Below, piece after piece: positions 34,477-59,728 of a stretch of DNA of 64,000 nt. Numbering within the stretch: position 1 is the stretch's first letter; each line of letters starts with the position of its first letter. The notes beneath the pieces are model-generated. The model made no database searches. It was given only the letters and a program-made list of their open reading frames with translations, and was not told the origin of the DNA. A program made the position numbers and the translations under genes. The stretch is from Levilactobacillus wangkuiensis (GTDB taxonomy: Bacteria; Bacillota; Bacilli; Lactobacillales; Lactobacillaceae), in assembly GCF_016861605.1 (NCBI RefSeq), contig NZ_BOLM01000006.1, positions 124,001 to 188,000 of the forward strand, in the 5' to 3' direction.

Positions 34477-34974
34477 TTACTTGTTAAAGTGAGCTGCTAA
34501 TTTCTTTGTGGTGTAGTACGTACTGTCAACATGGCCGCCTGAAACTTTTTGAAGCACCTTAATCTTCCGGTTCCTATAAGTCTTGGTTCTAACCCGGTAG
34601 CTACCTTCTAGTGGCAGCGTTACACTCTTATTCCACAGGCCAATGTGAACTGTGCCGTGTTGCTTTTTGGCGTAAATCCATAATGGCTTATATTTATTCT
34701 TATTATTAGGAAATGGCCGCTTGTGCGCGTGCAGGTTAAATTTAACAAAACCTGTGTCCGTGTTGTAGCGCATACGATTTGTCTTAGCCGTAATCTTCAT
34801 GGCATTACCACGCTTTCCTGCTGTCATATACCAGTTATGCCGAAAGGCCTTGGGAAAGGTCTTCAGCGTCGACTTAGCCGCTGCCTGTGTGGTGTTGCCG
34901 GGCAACGTAATGGCTCCGGCGAGGCCCAATCCGGTGGTGACGGTGACGAGGGCTAGTGCTTGGGTTAATTTCAT
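34477..34974 (-). CDS. Small secreted protein, PKxLRGTW family (member G)
   Basis: A 165-residue protein with a signal peptide (MKLTQALALVTVTTGLGLAG..., cleavage near TQA-A) and TFPKAFRHNWYMTAG, the motif with Gly-Thr replaced by His-Asn. TTGGAGGAG precedes the ATG. Closest relative is member E at 23346 (LHAHKRPF, YAKKQHG, SVTLPLEGSYR, TTKKLAAHF). It has its own terminator and an upstream 23-bp motif shared with the neighbouring interrupted membrane-protein gene, so the two may be co-regulated. Function unknown. Confidence 0.85.
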   Translation of the reverse strand: MKLTQALALVTVTTGLGLAGAITLPGNTTQAAAKSTLKTFPKAFRHNWYMTAGKRGNAMKITAKTNRMRYNTDTGFVKFNLHAHKRPFPNNKNKYKPLWIYAKKQHGTVHIGLWNKSVTLPLEGSYRVRTKTYRNRKIKVLQKVSGGHVDSTYYTTKKLAAHFNK

Positions 34975-39988: not shown

Positions 39989-41176
39989 ATGCATAAAAAT
40001 TGGATTAAATTAACAGTCGCGGTCGCTTTACTAGCTGGCAGTTCACTAGCTTTAACGACCACTGCTGACGCAAAAGCTACTTATCAAATGACGGACACTC
40101 AGACCGTCACACCGAAACCTTATCACATTACCAACCCACAAAAGGCTTTATATTCTTGGGACAAGACCCATACCAAACGTATGGCCAATCTGGCTAGCTT
40201 GGAGTACTTGAGTTGGTTTGTCATCGAAAAAGATACAATGATACACAGTGGTAAAACCACGACTTACTTTAAAGTTGCCGATAGTTATGGCACACAATAC
40301 GGCTACGTTTACGCAAAGGGACTGACGAAAGGCTTTGATCCCAAGGATGATGAGAAGCTAGCCTACAAGCCTGAAACAAAAGTAGCAGGAACTGCAAAAA
40401 TCCAGCGCGTAAGTGAAGCCGCCTTTGCCAAAGCCACGCCTACCTTAACCAAGAACACGTACTATCGCACCACAAAACAGGTCAAGCTCACAGCTGGATT
40501 TACGCCTTACTTCGACGATATGGGGTCTATCAATAAAACTGTAACGCTTCCTAAAGGGACAGTCGTTGAAGCTCACCGGTTTTACAATCAATACAATAAT
40601 TTAGCCATTGGTACCAACTACTTAAGCCGAAATATCTTAAGCCCAGGTTACCAACAGAATTTATGGGTATCAAGCGATGGTGCGTCAACTTCAAGCGCTG
40701 CCAAAATAAACGCCTTTACTAAGACTAAACGCCCAGCCTATCTACCAAAGAACGGTAGCCATGGTGACTTTTACTTAGGTGGTGTCACGGCACTGAAGAA
40801 CAAGAATAAAGCTTTATCCAAGCAATCCGTCCAAATCACTTCGAACGGTTACGTTGAAGTTCGTAAAAACAATCCAGCTGGCAAGTCCACTGAGTATCGG
40901 GCAAAACCAACCGCTTCCGTAAAAATTCAACGGACGACAGTTAAGGGACACACGCGCTACCTCTACTTGGCTAAATCACTAAAGGGCTTTAAGACGACTA
41001 AGGTCACTTACCACGGCAAGAAGCAGTACCGGCTGTCTCTCGTTAACCAACTCAAAACGTACGCTGAGCCCAACTACAGTGAGGAGTGGGACTTAGCGCC
41101 TTCGTACTATGGCCTCATGTCACTGGGTGGTAAGACCTTCTATACCCCTTATGGCGCAACGCCTGAAGATCACTAA
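39989..41176 (+). CDS. Large secreted protein with SH3-like or beta repeats, unknown
   Basis: A 395-residue protein with signal peptide MHKNWIKLTVAVALLAG... (cleavage near ADA-K), Lys/Thr/Tyr-rich and without Cys. It contains stretches such as TYFKVADSYGTQYGYVYAKG that resemble the SLAP/SH3-like surface repeats of lactobacilli. The segment VQITSNGYVEV...SVKIQR...TRYLYLAKSL matches IHVSSDGYLEY...SVKVTK...KTYLYTKQAV in the protein at 43505, so these two are homologues. AGGGGACTAA precedes the ATG. Function unknown. Confidence 0.7.
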   Translation: MHKNWIKLTVAVALLAGSSLALTTTADAKATYQMTDTQTVTPKPYHITNPQKALYSWDKTHTKRMANLASLEYLSWFVIEKDTMIHSGKTTTYFKVADSYGTQYGYVYAKGLTKGFDPKDDEKLAYKPETKVAGTAKIQRVSEAAFAKATPTLTKNTYYRTTKQVKLTAGFTPYFDDMGSINKTVTLPKGTVVEAHRFYNQYNNLAIGTNYLSRNILSPGYQQNLWVSSDGASTSSAAKINAFTKTKRPAYLPKNGSHGDFYLGGVTALKNKNKALSKQSVQITSNGYVEVRKNNPAGKSTEYRAKPTASVKIQRTTVKGHTRYLYLAKSLKGFKTTKVTYHGKKQYRLSLVNQLKTYAEPNYSEEWDLAPSYYGLMSLGGKTFYTPYGATPEDH

Positions 41177-41877: not shown

Positions 41878-42360
41878 CTATTGCTTATAGAGATAAGTCG
41901 TGTGGTTATCAACTCGCGGATACATCTCTAACGCCTTTTTTCCATTATGACGAACTAGCTTCAAGTAGAGGATAGAGGCATATGCAAGCTTACTCTTCGT
42001 CTTGACCGCCGTTGGATAAATCTCGTATCGCTTGGTCTTGTAGCGGTAGTCAATGTCACGAATTTCTTTCTTTAGAAAGTGAATGGTCTTGGACTTCCGC
42101 TTCCCTTGAAAATCCACTTTCTGTGAATACGTATGCTTTTTGAACGAGTAGCTCCAGCGCACCTTTTTATTATTCTCGCCATTGTACTCGGTATATCCCT
42201 TAGTCCGCCACGTCCCCCACAATGGCTTAGGAATGGACTTGTACGTCTTGTAGTTCTTGGCGTTATTAGTAGCGGCGCTGGCTGGTTGAGAGACTGAAGT
42301 CACAGCTCCAACTAGTCCTAGGCTTAAGACTACTGCCAGTACTAAATGCTTGATTTTCAT
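41878..42360 (-). CDS. Small secreted protein, PKxLRGTW family (member H)
   Basis: A 160-residue protein with a signal peptide (MKIKHLVLAVVLSLGLVG, cleavage near ASA-A) and SIPKPLWGTWRTKGY at about residues 43-57 (Arg replaced by Trp). GGAGGGGAA precedes the ATG. It is a clear paralogue of the next gene upstream (member I): same signal start MKIKHLV, WRTKGYTEY / WQTKGYTKY, KTIHFLKKEI / KTIHFPKNQV, LKLVRHNGKKAL / LKPVRRNGKRAL. The segment KVRWSYSFKK is nearly the same as the peptide encoded by the first CRISPR spacer at 43085. Function unknown. Confidence 0.85.
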   Translation of the reverse strand: MKIKHLVLAVVLSLGLVGAVTSVSQPASAATNNAKNYKTYKSIPKPLWGTWRTKGYTEYNGENNKKVRWSYSFKKHTYSQKVDFQGKRKSKTIHFLKKEIRDIDYRYKTKRYEIYPTAVKTKSKLAYASILYLKLVRHNGKKALEMYPRVDNHTTYLYKQ

Positions 42361-42396: not shown

Positions 42397-42882
42397 CTAC
42401 TTTCGGTAGAAATAAGTCATCTTGGTACCACCAATTGGGTAAAGGGCCAGAGCTCGTTTTCCATTACGACGGACTGGCTTTAGCGTTAAGTATGATGCGT
42501 AGGCCTTCTTGGCATCGGACATCTTCCCGCCTGGAAAAACGTCGTAAACCTTTCTTTGCTTCTCATACCACATACCACCAACTTGGTTCTTGGGGAAGTG
42601 AATGGTCTTAGACTTTACGCTACCACCTTTAAACTTCATGATTAGTGTATATGAGTTCTTATTAAATTTGTATGTAGCATTAGACTTGATTCCCTTACGA
42701 TATTTAGTGTATCCCTTGGTTTGCCAAGTACCACGCAAAGCTTTCGGCATGGTTTTATACTTTCGAAAATTCTTATTACTAGTAGTCACGGCACGCGCTG
42801 GCTGTGCAGCTGATATAGTCGTAGCCATCCCCGCAACACCAAAACATACTGCGACAGCAGCTACAAGATGTTTAATTTTCAT
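42397..42882 (-). CDS. Small secreted protein, PKxLRGTW family (member I)
   Basis: About 161 residues from the ATG at 42882 (GGAGGG 7 nt upstream). Signal peptide cleavage is likely near ARA-V; the motif TMPKALRGTWQTKGY is canonical. It lies 36 bp upstream of member H in one leftward operon and is its tandem duplicate. A TATAAT box lies about 60 bp upstream. The mature protein is very Lys-rich and has no Cys. Function unknown. Confidence 0.85.
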   Translation of the reverse strand: MKIKHLVAAVAVCFGVAGMATTISAAQPARAVTTSNKNFRKYKTMPKALRGTWQTKGYTKYRKGIKSNATYKFNKNSYTLIMKFKGGSVKSKTIHFPKNQVGGMWYEKQRKVYDVFPGGKMSDAKKAYASYLTLKPVRRNGKRALALYPIGGTKMTYFYRK

Positions 42883-43056
42883 TGTATATCCCTCCATCTA
42901 GAAATGATTGTTACTTACCAACTCACGCCATAATTATAGCACAACGTTAACTGTCGAAATGTAAAAATATTTTCGTACTCATATTCTACAAATAGAGAAA
43001 TACTTAGCTTTCTTACTTTTGAATGACACATTAATTCAAATAATTGGACTTACAAT

Positions 43057-43267
43057 TAATCGCCCCCACATCCGTGGGGAATACTAAGGTTAGATGGACT
43101 TACACCTTTAAAAAGAAGGATCACCCCCGCATCCGCGGGGAATACGGTCAAGCTGACGCATCGCATCGACCACCTCAAGGATCACCCCCGCATCCGCGGG
43201 GAATACCCTTTCCATATTTTCGTAATTTAAATTTAGATAGGATCACCCCCGCATCCGCGGGGAATAC
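43057..43267 (-). CRISPR. Orphan type I-E CRISPR mini-array 1: 4 repeats, 3 spacers
   Basis: 28-bp repeats start at 43057, 43118, 43179 and 43240, with 33-bp spacers at 43085-43117, 43146-43178 and 43207-43239. The repeat (+ strand) starts GGATCACCCCCGCATC and ends GGGGAATAC; the 43057 copy is degenerate, marking the distal end. By analogy with other I-E arrays, transcription is leftward from the leader at 43268. No cas genes occur in the window. Spacer 1 encodes KVRWTYTFKK, almost the same as part of the protein at 41878. Confidence 0.95.
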
Positions 43268-43392
43268 ACTAAGCAAACGCCGTCATACCGCACTTTAAAA
43301 ATCACCCCAACCCGGTTTTCATTTAACTTGTGTTCCAAGCATACAGCAGCCCTCCCCCAACCACAATCAATTTCTTTGCCGCTATAGCGAAA
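43268..43392 (-). promoter_or_regulatory. CRISPR leader 1
   Basis: About 125 bp after the last repeat, closely similar to leader 2 at 44552-44675 (shared blocks AAACGCCGTCA, CGGTTTTCATTTAACTT, GCATACAGCAGCCCTCCC and CAATTTCTTTGCCGCTATAG). The conserved position beside both arrays identifies it as the leader. Confidence 0.75.
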
Positions 43393-43504: not shown

Positions 43505-44356
43505 ATGAAACTTAAGAACATTCTAGTTACTATAGGTGCAATTGGACTCGGGTTAGCCCTAACCGGTGGCGTCACAGCAGCGGCTAGTACCAGCTACGTC
43601 AACGCCAAGTCTGGGAATTTTTTGATAGCTAAGAAAAAAATTGTTCTTGCTAAAACCAAGTACAAAAAGGCCTTCACTATTCTCAAAGGCACCATCGTTC
43701 AAATCAGCGGTGTCACCACGCTTAACGGAAAACGCATCATGGACATTCAAATGAATTCGCTCAGTTACCATTTACGAAAGAGCTATGTTGGGAAAAATGA
43801 GACCTCGACGCGAAATATCGTTATGAAAAAAACTAATTTCAAAAAAGTCTCAGTTCCCCAGTATCTCCGGTACTACAGTACACAAAAATCCTATCCAGAA
43901 AACATTGGATTAAATGCGACTCAGGATGGCAGCCTCTTTGCCGGACTGAAGTATCCAGACGCTAACGACGAAAGCACGGCTAAAGCCGCTCGCATTCACG
44001 TCAGCAGTGATGGTTATCTCGAGTACTACGCTAACACTGATGTCTTTAGCGTAGGCGTCGACCCCAAACCCACGACTTCCGTCAAAGTTACCAAAGCTGC
44101 ACTCCCTTCAGGCAGTGGAAAAACCTACCTCTACACCAAGCAAGCCGTTCCTAGTGCAATTGGTAAGCGTATCAGCAAGTCTGGTAGCGCTCAGTATCTG
44201 ACAGTGATTAAGCGCCAGTATACAACTTACACGACAACTTACACCACTGAGCGTAATAAGGACGTAACCAGCAGCGTCCACGTCTCTTGCGGCTATCTGG
44301 TAAACGGCACGCATTACTACATGCCGACTGCTATTTTCTTCCCTCAATCCAACTAA
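43505..44356 (+). CDS. Secreted protein related to the 39989 product, unknown function
   Basis: A 283-residue protein with a signal peptide (MKLKNILVTIGAIGLGLALTG..., cleavage near NAK or ASA). The mature part is Lys/Thr/Tyr/Ser-rich and beta-like. Its middle and C-terminal sections align with the protein at 39989 (IHVSSDGYLEYY...TTSVKVTK...TYLYTKQA). AGGAGG precedes the ATG; TATACT at 43461-43466 is the likely -10. It sits alone between two CRISPR mini-arrays, which is unusual for a surface-protein gene. Confidence 0.7.
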   Translation: MKLKNILVTIGAIGLGLALTGGVTAAASTSYVNAKSGNFLIAKKKIVLAKTKYKKAFTILKGTIVQISGVTTLNGKRIMDIQMNSLSYHLRKSYVGKNETSTRNIVMKKTNFKKVSVPQYLRYYSTQKSYPENIGLNATQDGSLFAGLKYPDANDESTAKAARIHVSSDGYLEYYANTDVFSVGVDPKPTTSVKVTKAALPSGSGKTYLYTKQAVPSAIGKRISKSGSAQYLTVIKRQYTTYTTTYTTERNKDVTSSVHVSCGYLVNGTHYYMPTAIFFPQSN

Positions 44357-44401: not shown

Positions 44402-44551
44402 GATTCACCCCCACATTCGCGGGGAATACAAAATTGAAGAGAACTTTGACCGCTACATCAAGGGATCACCCCCGCATCCGCGGGGAATACTGCCCACTTA
44501 GCACTGCTAAGGGCTTCATCTGAGGATCACCCCCGCATCCGCGGGGAATAC
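44402..44551 (-). CRISPR. Orphan type I-E CRISPR mini-array 2: 3 repeats, 2 spacers
   Basis: 28-bp repeats at 44402, 44463 and 44524 enclose 33-bp spacers at 44430-44462 and 44491-44523. Repeats 2 and 3 are identical to those of array 1; the first (44402) is degenerate (GATTCACCCCCACATT at its start), so it is the distal end. Its leader lies at 44552. No cas genes are near. Confidence 0.95.
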
Positions 44552-44675
44552 ACTAAACAAACGCCGTCACACCGCACTTTGAAAATCACCAAAACTCGGT
44601 TTTCATTTAACTTCTACCTAAGCATACAGCAGCCCTCCCACAACCACAATCAATTTCTTTGCCGCTATAGCGAAA
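44552..44675 (-). promoter_or_regulatory. CRISPR leader 2
   Basis: About 124 bp homologous to leader 1 over its whole length with scattered substitutions, implying duplication of an array-plus-leader unit. Confidence 0.75.
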
Positions 44676-48432: not shown

Positions 48433-48990
48433 TTGAAAAACTTACATATTAAGGTACTGCTGGTATTACTCGCCACCACCGGTCTCCTGGGGGTCACAAC
48501 GACCTCGGCCAACGCAGAAACCGTTTGGACCTTTGGCACGAAACGCAGTCTGCGCACGGCACCAAAGGCTTTGCGCGGTACCTGGTACGGGTTTGAACTT
48601 TCCCAAGATAAGCACCCCAAGAAGCTAGTCGTTAACAAGAAATCCTTCACCGTGAAGACAACTAAAGGTATTCGTACCATCAAGTATGCCAAATCAATGA
48701 TGTGGTCGCGTAAAGCGAAAAACCACCCTAACGTTGATTTGCGCAAACCGTTCAAAGGCTGGTACTACTTCGCCATCAATCTAAAACCTAGCTCAGATCT
48801 CAAAGCTTCACAATTCTACTGCGGGCAAGTTCTCCCAGTTACGTACAAGCATCACCCAGCTCTAGCCTATGTGCCCGTTGTCAGCGAAAACTCGTCTAAG
48901 GTCATGCTCCTAACCAAGAAGAAATATAACCATCCCGTTTACAAGAGCACTAAGCATATGACTGTCATCAATTTTTACGGTGGCAAATAA
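48433..48990 (+). CDS. Small secreted protein, PKxLRGTW family (member J)
   Basis: A 185-residue protein, the longest member. The start is TTG at 48433, preceded by AAGGAGGGG. The signal peptide ends near ANA-E and the motif is TAPKALRGTWYGFEL at about residues 37-51. It is the sister of member D at 15085, sharing LVVNKKSF-type strands, the GWYYFAI block, the VTYKHH segment and the TVINFYGGK ending. Rich in Lys, Tyr and Trp; one Cys (FYCGQ). Monocistronic. Function unknown. Confidence 0.8.
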   Translation: MKNLHIKVLLVLLATTGLLGVTTTSANAETVWTFGTKRSLRTAPKALRGTWYGFELSQDKHPKKLVVNKKSFTVKTTKGIRTIKYAKSMMWSRKAKNHPNVDLRKPFKGWYYFAINLKPSSDLKASQFYCGQVLPVTYKHHPALAYVPVVSENSSKVMLLTKKKYNHPVYKSTKHMTVINFYGGK

Positions 48991-59267: not shown

Positions 59268-59675
59268 TTACTTGTGATACCAGCCAAGATAAGAATAGCT
59301 ACTTGACCAAGATATTTTGAACTTTAGGTGATTATTTTTCTTCACCATCTTAATGTGTGGATTAGATACTTTCGTTACACCTTGGTAGCAAGTTCCTTTA
59401 AACTTGTACGTACCTTTGCCAGCCTTCTTATATTTCAGGTTCTTCCAAACTTGAACCGGCATACTCTCTGATGCAGAAGTAATAGTCTTCTTACCCACAA
59501 TCCAGCCATTATGAGCCTTATTTCCATTGTAATTGAATGATTTACTCTTCCAATGTCCTCTCAGTACCTTCGGCGTTCCTTTATGCCAATATGCAGCACT
59601 AGCCGTTGTCGGAACTGCTCCACCCACTAGGAGTACTGTCATTACAGTGACTGCTATCTTACTAAATTTACCCAT
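59268..59675 (-). CDS. Small secreted protein, PKxLRGTW family (member K)
   Basis: About 135 residues; GGAGG stands 7 nt before the second of two adjacent ATGs. Signal peptide cleavage near ASA-A, then YWHKGTPKVLRGHWKSKSF. It shares the WHKGTPK start with member L at 60859, which lies 1.2 kb away on the other strand, and both are the shortest of the family and end in aromatic-basic tails (GWYHK, YHRR). Function unknown. Confidence 0.85.
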   Translation of the reverse strand: MGKFSKIAVTVMTVLLVGGAVPTTASAAYWHKGTPKVLRGHWKSKSFNYNGNKAHNGWIVGKKTITSASESMPVQVWKNLKYKKAGKGTYKFKGTCYQGVTKVSNPHIKMVKKNNHLKFKISWSSSYSYLGWYHK

Positions 59676-59728
59676 CATCTTACCTCCAGATTAATCAGTA
59701 TTAATACTGAATCCCAGCACTTAGACAA

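Follow-up and report, generated by a model that had tools for sequence, protein, structure and literature searches.

The closest described counterparts of the arrangement reported here are the orphan type I-F arrays of Escherichia coli, which carry spacers against cas genes and were first called anti-CRISPR (Touchon and Rocha 2010, PMC2886076); for anti-cas spacers in E. coli see also Almendros et al. 2016, as cited in PMC5972030. In the parts of these sources covered, the E. coli arrays are short and cas-less, their spacers match the cognate missing cas genes, and presence of the spacers correlates with absence of the genes, in all of which the Levilactobacillus arrays described below resemble them. 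The Levilactobacillus arrays differ in being of type I-E, in holding spacers against array-flanking genes other than cas, and in the occurrence of such spacers also in one genome with Cse1 (G013) and in one whose Cse1 has an internal stop (G024). Spacer-capture hot spots have been reported at the CRISPR locus of E. coli (PMC12539621), and the two cases are alike in that CRISPR-locus DNA appears over-sampled as a spacer source; as far as the covered part of that source goes, the E. coli data come from a Cas1-Cas2 expression experiment, whereas the Levilactobacillus trace consists of natural old spacers under selection. Self-targeting spacers with cas loss (PMC6990116, in the part covered; e.g. 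Lactobacillus acidophilus NCFM) are similar in that loss or mutation of target or cas serves as an escape; in Levilactobacillus, unlike there, no exact self match was seen and the targets are local to the array. Archaeal spacers that match chromosomal genes and cas genes of relatives (PMC3285040) also resemble the present case, and the title of a supplementary table of that paper includes sequences flanking CRISPRs, but the part of it covered does not relate where a target lies to the array that carries the spacer. That cas-less arrays can carry spacers against cas genes is already known. The new part is the non-cas neighbours as targets: among titles and abstract openings, mostly of non-subscription literature, no report was found of founder spacers matching non-cas genes that flank their own array.

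The window analysed is a stretch of 64,000 nucleotides from Levilactobacillus wangkuiensis, whose genome is G000 in the genus genome set, the other genus genomes being labelled G001 and so on. 'Secreted-type' refers to signal-peptide-like N-termini judged by eye. Positions are those of the window.

41878 to 42360, minus strand: gene of a 160-aa secreted-type protein, the family encoded by spacer 43085-43117.
42397 to 42897, minus strand: 166-aa paralogue of the 160-aa protein, 21/33 to spacer 43085-43117.
43057 to 43267, minus strand: CRISPR array 1, type I-E-like repeats, 3 spacers.
43057 to 43084: degenerate repeat of array 1, at the trailer end.
43085 to 43117, minus strand: oldest (trailer-terminal) spacer of array 1, 33 bases, identified by homology as a fragment of a homologue of the 160-aa gene.
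43118 to 43145: second repeat of array 1.
43268 to 43392, minus strand: leader of array 1, common to array 2 (blocks D2 and D3, 93% and 98% identical).
43505 to 44356, plus strand: gene of a 283-aa secreted-type protein, between arrays 1 and 2.
44402 to 44551, minus strand: CRISPR array 2, 2 spacers.
44430 to 44462, minus strand: oldest spacer of array 2, 28/33 to a UPF0158 gene in the same locus of G015.
44552 to 44675, minus strand: leader of array 2.

The repeats of both arrays are of 28-29 bases and of I-E-type (GTATTCCCC...GGGGGTGATCC), with a period of 61 bases, and like repeats were found in arrays adjoining Cse1 genes in other genomes; the repeat GTATTCCCC...GGGGGTGATCC is one that we take to belong to the I-E type. 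Judged by repeat orientation and by the leaders that the two arrays share (at 43268 and 44552), the leader lies to the right of the arrays and the crRNA strand is minus. Spacer 43085-43117, the 'spacer 1' of an earlier, sequence-only reading of this DNA, is therefore leader-distal and the oldest of array 1, which corrects that reading on this point. The newest spacer of array 1 (43207-43239) had one weak match in phages, agreeing at 24/25 bases with an uncultured phage record (LR756500.1, E 7e-3), possibly by chance, and no match in phages was obtained for the window spacers at 43146 and 44491. Further small secreted-type proteins near the arrays are encoded at 34477-34974, 39989-41176, 48433-48990 and 59268-59678. 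None of seven small secreted-type proteins scanned near arrays exceeded the family cut-off in Pfam, and none of five locus proteins scanned had a match in NCBIfam.

In one frame, spacer 43085-43117 reads KVRWTYTFKK and the protein of 41878-42360 contains KVRWSYSFKK, exactly as the sequence-only reading had stated, and the DNA identity that it gave, 22/30, was reproduced (23/33 over the full spacer). This is the best site for the spacer in the window and has no adjoining AA; the second best (21/33) lies at the homologous place of the paralogue at 42397-42897. Among shuffled spacers, 40 of 2000 reached 23/33 in the window, and at the peptide level 8/10 residues were reached by 1 of 1000 shuffles. 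Taken alone, the window match is suggestive, its likeness being only moderately beyond chance and not decisive. The spacer itself apart, no site with three or fewer mismatches was present in the own genome, and the spacer has there no exact or near-exact protospacer with a PAM of the kind that defines self-targeting.

Matches to the 160-aa family, weak and partial ones included, were obtained in 16 of 35 Levilactobacillus genomes. Across homologues of other genomes, the spacer had its best ungapped site at the homologous codons, with identities of 21-28/33: the best site was in G027 (L014/L035, 28/33), followed by a second G027 copy, G028 and G022 (27/33), six further homologue sites (25-26/33) and the remaining ones (21-24/33). 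Sites of at least 25/33 numbered ten, across seven genomes. No spacer site was found at the homologous codons of homologue L019 (G001) or in the weak partial family matches L027-L033. Four of the five differences between spacer and L035 are silent, and AA, the I-E-type PAM, adjoins the site; in G027, some 16 kb separate the L035 copy from the closest array found. These results bear out the proposal that the spacer came from a homologue and not from the present 41878 gene; an exact protospacer in an unrelated gene read in another frame, named beforehand as the contrary case, was looked for and not found. Outside the own genome, a search with up to three mismatches through 35 genus and 397 family genomes (overlapping sets) returned only the orthologous array of G017, a sister genome, where the spacer is exact, and no copy in the other 395 family genomes. 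The matches at homologous codons in relatives decide the matter: spacer 43085-43117 is an old fragment of a family relative, and its descent from a relative of the secreted-type gene nearby is genuine.

The sequence-only reading had further proposed that the family is phage- or plasmid-linked, which would place the targeted secreted-type genes on mobile elements such as phages or plasmids and make the spacer one of ordinary defence. The patchy distribution of the secreted-type genes between species agrees with this. The collections do not: tblastn with the 160-aa protein (E up to 0.01), the only locus protein covered by this search, gave no match in 50,697 phage or 72,556 plasmid records, and viral contigs contained no match to a degenerate DNA pattern of the peptide. 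In genome contigs the same pattern was found at eight loci, all of Levilactobacillus, so that every named match lies within one genus; one (L169) also holds the array copy, and contigs of chromosome size (G030:C1, G032:C1, G034:C1) carry some of the homologues. With the spacer itself, only chance-level matches were obtained in phages (E about 4) and none in plasmids, and its 24-base core gave nothing above chance in viral contigs. PHROG had no match for four of the five locus proteins and a weak one for the fifth (RNA polymerase family, E 4e-4), and cas genes are matched by spacers in like manner (see below). No protospacer on a phage or plasmid was thus found for spacer 43085-43117; a phage or plasmid source was set aside, nothing above chance having been returned from phages, plasmids or viral contigs by spacer or 160-aa protein, and we consider a mobile location of the targets very unlikely.

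For a survey of the genus, a strict array definition was applied, giving 48 arrays in 22 of 35 genomes and 563 distinct type I-E spacers. Array regions were picked from arrays among the matches listed and from Cse1 places. The search set consisted of 0.90 Mb of CRISPR, cas and secreted-locus DNA in overlapping loci, included the entire window as well as a few loci that had entered through weak protein matches, and was fetched with the match of the first spacer known and before the other matches were seen. Controls were 0.40 Mb of RecA neighbourhoods (20/35 genomes), 0.40 Mb in 20 hand-picked stretches, and shuffled and reversed spacers; matches elsewhere were sampled for the 563 spacers by the control DNA only. 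At a cut of at least 26/33 (0.78), 12/563 spacers matched the CRISPR, cas and secreted-locus DNA, compared with 1/563 in RecA neighbourhoods, 0 in the other regions, 0/563 when shuffled and 1/563 when reversed; at 80%, the numbers were 10 and 0 in all four controls. A first scan with a looser repeat pattern had given 561 spacers and 13 at the cut, and the counts reported are those of the strict scan. L082:12681 and L077:922, single-spacer pseudo-arrays with a match in a transporter-like frame (named by eye), were left out and are absent from the strict list; L066:4307 and L050:11567 lay below the cut at 25/33.

Six of the 12 matches were to secreted-locus genes, from arrays at the secreted locus, and the other six to cas1, cse1 or cas3, from arrays at a present or former cas locus, with no cross matches between the two sets (Fisher P 0.002). 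Since the search set comprised two kinds of locus only, the informative part of this locality is the absence of cross matches. Trailer-terminal (oldest) spacers accounted for 10/12 matches, i.e. for 10/47 terminal spacers vs 2/516 others, and in arrays of at least three spacers for 6/36 terminal spacers vs 1/513 others; single-spacer arrays contributed two of the ten terminal matches, and three carriers of matched spacers are close relatives. By codon position the 52 mismatches were distributed 5, 6 and 41, with 38 silent, a third-position bias such as purifying selection would leave in homologous coding DNA. The 5'-AA PAM of type I-E was enriched and not universal: AA adjoined the best target in 7/12 cases, against a background of 0.078, and in 9/12 when any listed relative was counted, two of the five targets whose best site is without AA having it in another relative. 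Chance likeness of short sequences might be argued from the shuffles that reached the same DNA identity in the window and from the single 26/33 matches in the RecA and reversed controls. We give it next to no probability in view of the survey controls, the third-position mismatches, the PAM enrichment and the relatives matching at 25-28/33 in the same codons.

The secreted-locus arrays of G000, G017 and G015 hold 16 spacers, of which four besides 43085-43117 have a match in this locus of a relative. The one from G015 is its oldest spacer and matches the 283-aa gene (30/33 in G006, 28/33 in the window), two spacers of G017 match a 380-aa gene of G015 (31/33 and 30/33), and the oldest spacer of window array 2 (44430-44462) matches the UPF0158-family gene of G015 (28/33). 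At the orthologous locus of G006, the oldest spacer matches the 160-aa family (26/33). That locus (G006:C31, L054:12893-17753) contains three mini-arrays of 5, 6 and 1 spacers, separated by genes for 282-aa and 166-aa secreted-type proteins and by an IrrE/M78-peptidase gene.

On the cas side, cas3 is the match of the oldest spacer both in G013 and in G024 (31/33 each), and cse1 or cas1 that of the spacers in the orphan arrays G000:C44 (two spacers), G017:C1 and G015:C5 (26-29/33). All four spacers of these three arrays are directed against cas1/cse1, as in anti-cas orphan arrays; the window arrays do not follow that pattern, with 2/5 spacers matched, both to secreted-locus genes and none to cas. 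G000:C44, G017:C1 and G015:C5 adjoin a gene for a 667-aa transporter, presumably of the KUP type. That gene borders the I-E cas locus of G014, G002 and G009, so that the orphan arrays appear to occupy a former cas site.

Such arrays invite the explanation, modelled on the anti-cas spacers of E. coli type I-F, that the spacers derive from chromosomal DNA entering from sibling species that possess this locus or the cas operon, by naive and then primed capture, and were kept for blocking its entry. It would share the possible DNA source with the explanation preferred below. The 4/4 spacers against I-E cas genes in the transporter-side arrays of G000, G017 and G015, genomes without Cse1, speak for it, as do the fit with the anti-cas arrays of E. 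coli in the covered parts of PMC2886076 and PMC5972030 and the fact that the best matches are in siblings and not in the own DNA checked. Exclusion of siblings alone would leave the locality unexplained, the secreted-locus arrays matching their own locus only and the cas-locus arrays cas only. An orphan array moreover has no Cas proteins of its own, and non-cas targets could be blocked only alongside a foreign cas operon. On our analysis this explanation is a real possibility that we nevertheless lean against.

In the carriers, the targets are absent or diverged in the DNA checked. Orthologues of the 380-aa gene with at least 60% identity were present in 9/35 genomes (that of G001 in two pieces), and among the matches listed G000 and G017 had only partial relatives of about 31%. 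The UPF0158-type gene had a match in 8/35 genomes, beside the same 160-aa family in G003 and G026, and was not found in G000 or G017 in the 35-genome search. For the 283-aa gene, close orthologues occur in this locus of G000 (100%), G017 (94%) and G006 (77%) and more distant ones in G004 (59% and 50%); G015, which carries the spacer, has no more than a paralogue of 42%, interrupted by an internal stop. The trailer flank of the single G015 array resembles that of array 1 (79% over 150 bases), and its outer leader flank is closer to that of array 2 (87%) than to that of array 1 (60%), which fits a deletion between two arrays that would have removed the targeted 283-aa gene. Cse1 was present in 21/35 genus genomes and found in none of G000, G017 and G015, so that no cognate Cascade or cas operon accompanies these arrays. 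The sole Cas1 found in G000 is of type II, beside csn2; none was found in G015, and G017 has a Cas1 match. At a contig end of G000 (G000:C3, L069:11513-13471) lie the type II-A adaptation genes cas1, cas2 and csn2, and a second CRISPR system may therefore be present. Own copies of targets were checked in 21 kb of G024, three regions of G006 and two of G013. The cas3 of G013 is 26/33 to the own spacer and has no AA, the paralogue of G006 is 21/33 to its own spacer, and the 21 kb around Cse1 in G024 showed no copy of the cas3 target. The Cse1 frame with the internal stop in G024 lies on C34 (L067/L160).

The partial own matches that persist (23/33 in the window, 26/33 in G013 cas3), together with the local targets, could be taken to mean a regulatory use, in which partially matching crRNAs would bind and tune neighbour or cas genes, and a regulatory main function has been proposed for the E. 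coli I-E system (PMC6413058, in the part covered). Against this, the own sites were seen without AA and with mismatches near the PAM end, G000, G017 and G015 have no Cse1, and most targets were not found in the carriers; we regard regulation as extremely improbable.

The reading that we prefer, and hold to be probable, is that these arrays were founded by spacers from their own flanks and that the survivors have lost or diverged the target. Spacer 43085-43117 would have been captured by a type I-E system from array-flanking DNA, either the ancestor's own or the same locus of a sibling. It would be one instance of a tendency in the genus for founder spacers to come from the neighbourhood of the array, Cas1-Cas2 sampling a hot spot at the CRISPR locus; for the hot spot in E. 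coli see also reference 14 of PMC12539621, reportedly Levy et al. 2015. A spacer against the own flank would be lethal under active interference, and since such spacers are self-destructive, a lineage would persist only after deletion or divergence of the target or after loss of the cas operon. The data show homology, PAM enrichment, locality, terminal position, and absence or divergence of the targets in the carrier DNA checked; a hot spot in this genus, a self source and loss after capture are what we infer. Exact matches outside arrays were found for none of the 12 spacers, so that self capture falls short of proof. Against capture from the own flank stands the best match of 43085-43117, which is in another species (28/33 vs 23/33 in the own gene); for this spacer it is the family member of the carrier itself that lies beside the array. 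In E. coli, cas loss after capture has been argued against (PMC2886076, in the part covered), which counts against the preferred reading.

In its wider form, the reading of flank-founded arrays would mean that arrays of the genus are often born autoimmune, with a founder spacer from adjoining DNA, that the survivors deleted or diverged the neighbour or lost the cas operon, and that CRISPR in this way shapes gene content at its own address, cas and non-cas alike; we put this forward tentatively, being not quite persuaded of it. If true, anti-cas orphan spacers and CRISPR-locus hot spots would join in one rule, that founder spacers are often local. It would help to account for the repeated loss of the cas operon and for the gene turnover beside arrays, and it would advise caution against taking the target of a spacer as mobile DNA.
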